From Peptococcaceae bacterium BRH_c8a (GTDB lineage Bacteria > Bacillota > Desulfotomaculia > Desulfotomaculales > Desulfallaceae), in the NCBI GenBank assembly GCA_000961575.1, contig LADP01000031.1, positions 62,001 through 126,000 of the forward strand: a stretch of 64,000 bases of DNA, in the 5' to 3' direction. The number at the start of each line of letters is the position of its first letter. Positions within the stretch are counted from its first letter, which is position 1. Of the stretch, positions 29,030 through 31,353 are shown piece after piece. Both the position numbers and the translations under genes were made by a program. The notes beneath the pieces were generated by a model, which was not told the origin of the DNA, did not search any database, and saw only the letters and a list, made by a program, of their open reading frames with translations.

Positions 29030-29374
29030 TTATGTTTTGTTCAGTTCTTCTTTAACAGCGTCAATGATCAGATCCTGGTCCAGACCGCCGTGGAGACGAG
29101 GTTCGCCATTGATTACTGTCAGCGGCAAACGTACCCGGTCAATAATTTTTTTCACCTCGGGATAGTCTTTAATTTCGTCGGTCTTAACATCAATGAATTG
29201 GCATACCACCCGATCACCAAAAATATCCTTTAGTTTTACGGTCAGTTCCCCGGCCTCTTCCTTCATGGTTTTTGCTGGTACGCCACAGGCAGACCCTCCG
29301 CCGCAGCCTCACCCGCCAGTAACAATAGGTTCGTCAACGCCGAAAAAGTAAATCCGGTTTTTGATTTCTTCCAT
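29030..29374 (-). CDS. Putative selenoprotein, thioredoxin-fold protein with in-frame UGA (Sec22)
   Basis: 114 aa if TGA at 29309-29311 is read as selenocysteine. The ATG at 29374 has GGAGG 8 nt upstream; an ATG at 29266 after the UGA has no clear site. The N-terminus reads MEEIKNRIYFFGVDEPIVTGG-U-GCGGGSACGVPAKTMKEE: a beta strand followed by a Gly-rich redox loop with U22, C24 and C30. The rest (FGDRVVCQFIDVKTDEIKDYP, LPLTVINGEPRLHGGL) has the cis-Pro strand and alpha/beta order of a small thioredoxin fold. It lies next to a CxxC thioredoxin-like gene, a DUF318 permease and an ArsR regulator, so a redox job in metal or metalloid handling is likely (inference). An automatic caller would keep only the last 78 residues. 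Confidence 0.75.
29277..29295 (-). promoter_or_regulatory. Possible bacterial SECIS hairpin
   Basis: Nucleotides 14-32 after the UGA form GGUCUGCC-UGU-GGCGUACC: seven pairs (one G-U) with one C/U mismatch and a triloop UGU whose G is 23 nt after the UGA. Bacterial SECIS elements are short hairpins with a G in an apical loop at about 16-37 nt from the codon. An alternative hairpin at nt 7-21 competes with it. Hand folding only. Confidence 0.45.
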
Positions 29375-29430
29375 GTTTGTCCCTCCTCGTCTTTGTATGA
29401 TGTTATTTTGGTTGTCTGAGCCAAACCGAT

Positions 29431-29483: not shown

Positions 29484-29510
29484 AAATAAGGAAGGGCTTT
29501 AAGCCCTTCC
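29484..29510 (-). terminator. Terminator after the thioredoxin-like gene
   Basis: Hairpin GGAAGGGCTT / AAGCCCTTCC followed leftward by TTATTTT. It lies 5 bp after the 29515 stop and separates the ArsR-permease-thioredoxin unit from the selenoprotein gene. Confidence 0.75.
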
Positions 29511-29514
29511 TATG

Positions 29515-29754
29515 CTATGCTTCTTCCTGAATCATCTTAATTACTGCGTCCTTCTTGGGTACTTTGCCGGTTGATTTTACCTTGCCGTTAATGATTAACC
29601 CCGGGGTAATCATTATACCAGCCTGCACTATTTGGTCCATGTCTTCCACCTTTTCAATCCGGGCGTCGATTTTAAGCTCTGCCACCGCATCCTGAACTAC
29701 TTTGGCGAGGTTCTTGCAATTTTTACAACCCGGACCCAGAACCTTGATTTCCAT
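29515..29754 (-). CDS. Thioredoxin-family protein (redox-active disulfide protein 2 type)
   Basis: 79 aa, active site C10-KN-C13 in MEIKVLGPGCKNC, then VQDAVAELKIDARIEKVEDMDQIVQAGIMITPGLIINGKVKSTGKVPKK with the cis-Pro TPGL. This is the small thioredoxin-like protein that typically follows DUF318 permeases. It probably reduces or transfers the substrate of the permease. Encoded 60 bp downstream of the permease gene, same strand, with a terminator right after it. Confidence 0.9.
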   Translation of the reverse strand: MEIKVLGPGCKNCKNLAKVVQDAVAELKIDARIEKVEDMDQIVQAGIMITPGLIINGKVKSTGKVPKKDAVIKMIQEEA

Positions 29755-29814: not shown

Positions 29815-30885
29815 TTAACCTACGATACTTCCAAATATCATACCGGTAACTGTGGCCAGGGTAACCACCAGCAGCACGTATACAAGTGTTCTTTTGGTAC
29901 CCATAACACTTCGCACCACCAGCATATTCGGCAAGCTCAAAGATGGGCCGGCCAGAAGTAGCGCCAAGGCCGGGCCCTTGCCCATACCCATATCCAGCAA
30001 CGCTTTGACAATAGGCACTTCCGTCAGCGTGGAGAAGTACATCAAAGAACCGACCACCGAGGCCACCAAGTTTGCCGACAAGCTATTGCCCCCCACTGAT
30101 GATGAAATCCAGTGGGTCGGGATTACCACTTTCAACACGCCGGCAACAAAAACACCCACCAGCAAAATGGGGAATATCAGCTTGACAAATTTCCATGTTT
30201 CCAGCAGCCATTCCCTAACCTCGTCACCGTCATACCATTGGGTGAGCACTACTGCCAAAAAGCTAAGCAGGGCCATTATGATTGCCACTTTACTCCAAAA
30301 AGGAATAGCCATGGTACCGAAAAGAAGGATGGCCATCAGTGTGCCGAAGAAAGCCAGCAGGTGACCTACCGGTTTTCCTTCCTCCCCGGCAAACATTCCG
30401 GCATCATCGTTTAGTTTACGCCTTTCTTCTTTTCTAAATATAAAGGCCATCAACAATCCGATAACTATGGAGAAAACCACGGCGCCGATAGCCCTGGCCA
30501 AACCCAGTTCCCAGCCCATTTTTCTAGCGGTAAGGACTATGGCCAGAATATTAATGGCCGGGCCGGAGAATAAAAAGGTAACCGCCGGTCCCAGACCAGC
30601 CCCTTTTTTGTGGATACCCGCAAAAAGTGGTAGTACTGTGCAGGAGCAGACAGCCAATATGCCGCCGGAAACAGATGCCACCCCGTACGCCAAGTGTTTG
30701 GGCGCCCGAGGTCCGAAGTATTTGAGCACGGCACCGGTTGAAACCAACGCCGCTACACCTCCGGCAATAAAGAATGCCGGCACTAGACAAGTCAGCACGT
30801 GCGCTGAAAGATATTCTAAAAGTTCATTAATACCGCTTTGTAATATCGTCATTAATGTCATACTGCCATCTCCCAGGTTCATCAC
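29815..30885 (-). CDS. DUF318-family permease (ArsP/YraQ-like)
   Basis: 356 aa with about eight membrane helices. Two sequence repeats carry the family motifs: SGGILAVCSCTVLPLFAGIHKKGAGLGPAVTFLFSGPAINI (about 92-132) and LTEVPIVKALLDMGMGKGPALALLLAGPSLSLPNML near 295-330. The CSC motif is the conserved Cys site; ArsP members export trivalent organoarsenicals while others are unassigned. With ArsR upstream and thioredoxin-like genes downstream a metalloid efflux or redox role is likely, but the substrate is not known. Confidence 0.88.
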   Translation of the reverse strand: MMNLGDGSMTLMTILQSGINELLEYLSAHVLTCLVPAFFIAGGVAALVSTGAVLKYFGPRAPKHLAYGVASVSGGILAVCSCTVLPLFAGIHKKGAGLGPAVTFLFSGPAINILAIVLTARKMGWELGLARAIGAVVFSIVIGLLMAFIFRKEERRKLNDDAGMFAGEEGKPVGHLLAFFGTLMAILLFGTMAIPFWSKVAIIMALLSFLAVVLTQWYDGDEVREWLLETWKFVKLIFPILLVGVFVAGVLKVVIPTHWISSSVGGNSLSANLVASVVGSLMYFSTLTEVPIVKALLDMGMGKGPALALLLAGPSLSLPNMLVVRSVMGTKRTLVYVLLVVTLATVTGMIFGSIVG

Positions 30886-30957: not shown

Positions 30958-31353
30958 TTAGGCTTCCTGCTCAAGCCTGACAGTAGCTGTCTTACCCTGT
31001 TTGCACAAGGTAACGTCGCAATTTGTATCCAATTGCTGCAACCGGGCATATTCATCCTTAAAGTCCGGCAAGTTTTCAAGCCCTTGGTTAAAATAAGCTA
31101 TCATGCCGGCAAAATGATCATCCAGAAATTGAACCCGTAAAGCATAAAACGTACGCTGGGCATCTTTTTTTTCTTTAAGTAATCCAGCTTCTTTCATCAC
31201 CCTCAGGTGCTGTGAAATTCTTGGTTGGCTAATCTGCAACACTTCTTCCAACTCACAAACGTACATGGGTCTTACAGAAAGAAGTTTTAATATTTTAAGC
31301 CGAGTGGGCTCGCCCAAAGCCTTAAAGATTTTTACCCAAATATCGGTATTCAT
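30958..31353 (-). CDS. ArsR-family transcriptional regulator
   Basis: 131 aa. Winged helix: FKALGEPTRLKILKLLSVRPMYVCELEEVLQISQPRISQHLRVMKEAGLLKEKKDAQRTFYAL (about 10-72), with C33 inside ELEEVL-type helix (MYVCELEE), where ArsR places its ELCVCDL metal site; only one Cys is there. Two more cysteines lie near the end (C113, C119). So it may sense a thiophilic ligand by a different Cys set. First gene of the permease/thioredoxin unit, with its promoter at 31384-31412; GGAGG-type site before the ATG. Confidence 0.9.
   Translation of the reverse strand: MNTDIWVKIFKALGEPTRLKILKLLSVRPMYVCELEEVLQISQPRISQHLRVMKEAGLLKEKKDAQRTFYALRVQFLDDHFAGMIAYFNQGLENLPDFKDEYARLQQLDTNCDVTLCKQGKTATVRLEQEA

Follow-up and report, generated by a model that had tools for sequence, protein, structure and literature searches.

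An apparently uncatalogued family of predicted selenoproteins with a thioredoxin-like fold, encoded beside an ArsP permease and in other metalloid loci

What does a short gene encode when a single TGA interrupts its frame and an ArsR repressor, an ArsP permease and a thioredoxin are encoded upstream of it? The gene in question lies on the minus strand at 29030..29374 of the window, by which we mean the whole 64,000-nucleotide stretch of Peptococcaceae bacterium BRH_c8a DNA that was analysed. As had been claimed in the preliminary description, its frame is open from an ATG with a ribosome site to a TAA, with one TGA at codon 22 (29309..29311, minus strand) in the motif GG-U-GCGGGSACG. The start ATG is preceded by GAGGAGGG, with the ribosome site AGGAGG at 29382..29387 (minus strand), and the frame 29374-29030 translates as MEEIKNRIYFFGVDEPIVTGG-U-GCGGGSACGVPAKTM..., the TGA being read as selenocysteine (Sec) in a protein of 114 amino acids with a predicted thioredoxin-like fold. 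The thioredoxin-type active site CxxC or UxxC is absent from the window protein, which has U-x7-C together with U-x-C instead; the cysteine of U-x7-C is the nearly invariant Cys30 (codon at 29285..29287, minus strand), which aligns near the third arsenic-binding cysteine of ArsD. The sole conventional open reading frame within the gene begins at 29266, after the TGA, and we found no ribosome site for this internal ATG, in agreement with the earlier observation. We conclude from the sequences that the window gene almost certainly encodes a real selenoprotein.

The homologues bear most directly on this conclusion. Two paralogues are encoded in the host genome, with identities of 76% and 47% to the window protein and with one TGA each at the same position, and a genome of the same genus keeps the whole locus (ArsR, ArsP, thioredoxin, selenoprotein gene and fatty-acid synthase), TGA included. 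The family is widespread among bacteria: members were found in 39 of 113 genomes of the order and in 62 of 398 genomes of a phylum-wide draw. Profile searches gave 120 usable sequences, 83 of which have TGA in the redox loop, with cysteine in most of the others; the homologues have their start upstream of the TGA, and their codon 22 specifies Cys or Sec, which answers the earlier suggestion to look for Cys in place of U22. An alignment of 75 diverse members, with TGA treated as Cys, has an invariant Sec/Cys column at position 22 as well as invariant Pro84 and Gly96. On the family tree, which was built with the loop columns left out, no fewer than 19 switches between Sec and non-Sec states are needed. 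When the window gene is compared with its orthologue and paralogues, pN is lower than pS on either side of the TGA. The shared TGA, the exchange of Sec with Cys and the selection on both sides together rule out a pseudogene, and the sequencing error that had been raised beforehand is excluded, since the syntenic orthologue and the paralogues share this TGA. The comparisons thus show translation passing through the UGA. A short protein of 78 amino acids made from 29266 was likewise rejected, given the missing ribosome site and the purifying selection upstream of the TGA.

Two variants within the homologue set deserve separate mention. Four of the 83 TGA members have tandem TGA codons in a CS-UU-GP loop (L086:9412-9747, L092:6021-6356, L093:2552-2902 and L088:6050-6385), which suggests adjacent selenocysteines. 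One member-like frame, L186 (G390:C15:16096-16434), has an in-frame TAG near its start and may be a pseudogene or an instance of other recoding. Searches of plasmids and viral contigs found no relatives.

The host has the means to read UGA as Sec. The preliminary description had asked for the Sec machinery, and selA, selB, two selD genes, both with an in-frame TGA, and two tRNA-Sec genes with UCA anticodon were all found in the host genome; SelB matches occur in 113 of 113 genomes of the order, 109 of them above the cut-off. That both tRNA-Sec and selD occur twice here could be genuine or could stem from a mixed assembly (3.7% contamination).

A bSECIS hairpin with an apical UGU had also been proposed, and this claim stood in part. 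The candidate hairpin (29277..29295, minus strand) can form, and with its UGU at +22 to +24 after the UGA it fits the published bSECIS rules on loop and spacing, which place the loop 16-37 nt after the UGA. Taken alone it is weak: its energy is -6.3 kcal/mol, or -8.4 kcal/mol with flank, it is not the minimum-energy structure, and its stability is no greater than that of synonymous-codon shuffles (z +1.4). An alternative hairpin with a GGG loop (29282..29307, minus strand; -13 kcal/mol) is more stable, but its loop, 12 nt after the UGA, is too near for the published model. For the family the signal is strong. Plain minimum-energy folding gave a modest difference between Sec and Cys members, so we used a score that follows the published bSECIS rules and compares each sequence with synonymous-codon shuffles. 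The 83 Sec members had a mean of -10.5 kcal/mol and a z of -1.34 +/- 0.13, with 72 passing the score, against a mean of -6.5 kcal/mol and a z of 0.03 for the 37 non-Sec members, with 11 passing (p 1e-7, an optimistic value because the sequences are related). Loop sequences are often GGU, UGU or GUUG. In one lineage a stem of 7-9 bp persists with base changes on both sides, for example GGAGCCG/CGGTTCC versus AGAACCA/TGGTTCT. A covariation count in a fixed register over 40 members was slightly above that of slid registers, because the hairpin registers differ between subfamilies. Rfam SECIS_1 gave no match, which is uninformative since control genomes were equally silent. The bSECIS-like hairpins are strongest, reaching 9 bp, in a branch whose genes are fixed between ligA and gatCAB (L090, L094, L096, L097, L098 and L100).

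What, then, might this protein do? The neighbours named in the preliminary description are borne out by Pfam and NCBIfam profile matches. Upstream on the same strand lie an ArsR/SmtB-family repressor (30958..31353), an ArsP_1/DUF318 permease with a CSC motif (29815..30885; ArsP_1 1.5e-80) and a CxxC thioredoxin of the MTH895/ArsE family (29515..29754; PF13192 7.5e-28, TIGR00412 above cut-off), and a cyclopropane-fatty-acid synthase gene lies downstream. The permease, whose true start may be inside the open reading frame, is the only ArsP_1 match in the host genome and takes the place of an ArsA/ArsB pump, none of which was found at the window locus. The window copy has no neighbours from selenium metabolism. 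An intrinsic terminator (29489..29511, minus strand) follows the thioredoxin gene, and so the selenoprotein gene probably forms its own transcription unit.

Similar neighbourhoods recur in distant lineages, which supports the link to metalloids that had been suggested for this locus; beyond the genes scanned with Pfam, the neighbour names given here are our reading of the sequences. The order ArsR-ArsP-ArsE-member is found in this genus with Sec and in three distant genomes (G172, G296 and G431) with Cys in a CSCGCSSC loop, and the order ArsR-ArsD-ArsA-ArsA-member is found with Sec in G149 and, partly seen, G269, and with Cys in G442 and G480. Members also lie in Acr3, ArsM, ArsC and lipoate-gene islands. 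An ArsP gene is within 3 kb of 12 of the 62 order-level members, where about 0.2 would be expected by chance from the approximately 1.9 ArsP_1 genes per relative in the family searches. Arsenic genes are not the sole context. Thirteen order-level members adjoin selD, 12 of them with yedF as well and with yqfC/yqfD/phoH downstream, and yedF stands beside members in three distant genomes. One of the host paralogues, L045 (G000:C46:17000-29000), which has the TGA, is divergent from a TGA-bearing selD and yedF and has yqfC/yqfD/phoH downstream, an arrangement that many relatives share. Further recurring contexts are ligA-gatCAB and mtnA/MTAP/sahH, the latter with a loop that contains Cys or is degenerate. 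A UGPxQSQ branch (L199, L204, L207, L208, L211 and L218), from one family of another class, adjoins apparent queuosine genes, queD/queC. Four ArsP_1/DUF318 permeases (L226, L227, L228 and L229; G014:C81:44706-45578, G015:C42:819-1808, G018:C13:32071-32973 and G019:C30:193697-194599) have an in-frame TGA in place of the first Cys codon of the CSC motif (TPF-U-SCS), where the window permease has Cys, and judged by their sequences they are probably Sec permeases, comparable to the UxC SO_0444 entry of a 2026 review. The one in G019 is about 0.4 kb from a family member, and Sec in the permease motif near a member would fit a chain of Sec/Cys sites that pass on one soft species.

Pfam and NCBIfam models gave no meaningful match to the window protein, for which AlphaFold2 predicts a thioredoxin-like fold at pLDDT 80, falling below 50 for residues 19-32, which include the Sec loop; a deeper alignment brought no gain in confidence for this loop. 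The best structural match is S. aureus YuzD/DUF1462 (1xg8; Foldseek rank 1, E 1.8e-3, TM 0.62; VIA Z 9.8, 3.2 A over 100 residues), which the family profile also matches at 3.7e-8, and ArsD is at Foldseek rank 2. With hhalign, the family aligns to ArsD proteins from member loci at 95.6% probability, the CxC...CG loop falling on the CC...CG loop of ArsD. In this approximate alignment the window residues U22-G-C24...C30-G31 face the CC-x4-C As(III) site of ArsD, a protein that needs its Cys12, Cys13 and Cys18 to act as a metallochaperone (PMC4562236). The Pfam DUF1462 cut-off is exceeded by four distant members, one of them with Sec, and the best ArsD model score belongs to a Sec member (25.4 against a cut-off of 27 bits); the window protein itself has no DUF1462 match at E 1 and no ArsD match. 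Invariant Pro84 occupies the place of the thioredoxin cis-Pro. These profile and structure matches put the family between YuzD/DUF1462 and ArsD, with Sec22 and Cys30 predicted to lie roughly at the arsenite-binding cysteines of ArsD.

We therefore favour, with moderate confidence, a selenoprotein in which Sec22 and Cys30 form a metalloid-thiolate site that acts together with the thioredoxin and the ArsP permease. SelB and tRNA-Sec would read UGA22 as selenocysteine, and by homology Sec22 and Cys30 would lie on the loop that joins strand 1 to helix 1, where confidence in the model is low. By analogy with ArsD, their most likely ligand would be a soft metalloid species, for example As(III) or a trivalent organoarsenical. 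Reduction of the site would be maintained by the ArsE-type thioredoxin, and the cargo would pass to the ArsP permease under the control of ArsR. We infer binding and hand-over from the conserved neighbourhoods and the position of the ArsD ligands; the ArsD-like site suggests both. Several observations count against this proposal: many members lie beside selD/yedF, gat/ligA, mtnA or queC/queD-like genes, a terminator splits the gene from the thioredoxin, the window protein matches neither ArsD nor DUF1462, its own bSECIS is weak, and it is in the redox loop that confidence in the model is low. In the selD-linked subfamily, the ligand of the Sec22/Cys30 site may be selenide. A wider view, which we consider doubtful, would see in the family widespread Sec carriers that bridge ArsD and YuzD and bring arsenicals to ArsP/Acr3 export and, in another branch, selenide to SelD; if so, the synthesis of selenoproteins would itself require a selenoprotein, the carrier next to SelD.

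The preliminary description had proposed a Sec-dependent redox step in metalloid handling, of which the metalloid context has held, with redox being one of two possibilities. The main rival is indeed a Sec-dependent oxidoreductase that carries no metalloid, a possibility that we entertain only tentatively. Sec22 would attack a pentavalent organoarsenical, a disulfide or a persulfide and form a selenenylsulfide with Cys30, which the CxxC thioredoxin would recycle. The thioredoxin fold, Pro84 at the cis-Pro place, the adjoining thioredoxin gene and the view that most known selenoproteins of this fold are oxidoreductases (2026 review) are consistent with such a reductase, but the U-x7-C spacing in place of UxxC, the profile link to ArsD, which is a carrier, and the members that adjoin ArsD-ArsA count against it. 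It is less probable, and in our judgement unlikely, that the protein acts mainly in selenium metabolism and brings selenide or selenopersulfide to SelD, with only secondary significance for the arsenic genes around the window copy. The 13 members beside selD, one of them in the host genome, and the yedF neighbours in the order and in distant genomes point that way, but the window copy has no such neighbour and its module matches the metalloid loci of other lineages. It is scarcely credible that the gene makes no selenoprotein, being a pseudogene, a sequencing error or the source of the 78-amino-acid product: a downstream ATG is present and the gene's own bSECIS is weak, but the TGA is common to paralogues, orthologue and dozens of homologues, the sequence 5′ of it is under purifying selection, and the ATG at 29266 lacks a ribosome site.

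The family appears to be uncatalogued within the catalogues and model libraries searched, and the earlier impression that it looked undescribed holds within Pfam, NCBIfam of June 2026, the 2026 review and the deep-Sep paper. The review lists 119 prokaryotic selenoprotein families and subfamilies, and its table contains none related to DUF1462, YuzD or ArsD; the window family is not among the nine new families of the deep-Sep paper, and no model in NCBIfam of June 2026 matches, a release that carries models named for Haft & Tolstoy 2025 families in the review. It seems that the current catalogue and NCBIfam lack this family's Sec genes, which number more than 80, and that Pfam lacks most of them; many are probably truncated or missed in annotation. 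Through the family, selenocysteine is connected with both metalloid efflux and selD. The family also provides a hypothesis that can be tested for DUF1462/YuzD, of unknown function, and its many natural Sec/Cys pairs lend themselves to asking what the reason for using selenium is.

Among known systems, YuzD/DUF1462 (PF07315; PDB 1xg8) shares the fold, length, conserved Pro and loop-helix arrangement, whereas the Sec loop of the window protein is longer and Gly-rich, the DUF1462 model does not match it, and the 2026 review table has no Sec member for DUF1462. ArsD (PF06953, NF033727; PDB 3kgk, 3mwh) shares the fold and the company of ars operons, and the family has paired Cys/Sec and then C-G roughly where ArsD has Cys12, Cys13 and Cys18; in contrast, family members score below the curated ArsD cut-offs and have Sec, and ArsD is a separate gene that adjoins some of them. 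About one order-level member in four has weak profile similarity to VcpD, the ArsD-related vicinal cysteine protein (NF047871), with an E of 8.8e-6 at best, but the scores observed are far under the 90-bit cut-off and the window protein has no match at E 1. The catalogued SaoT, HUIPC, DF and Thioredoxin_3 Sec.1/Sec.2 are also small redox-fold selenoproteins, some near metal genes, but none of them matches the window protein significantly by profile, and their motifs are UxxC, UxC or CxU.
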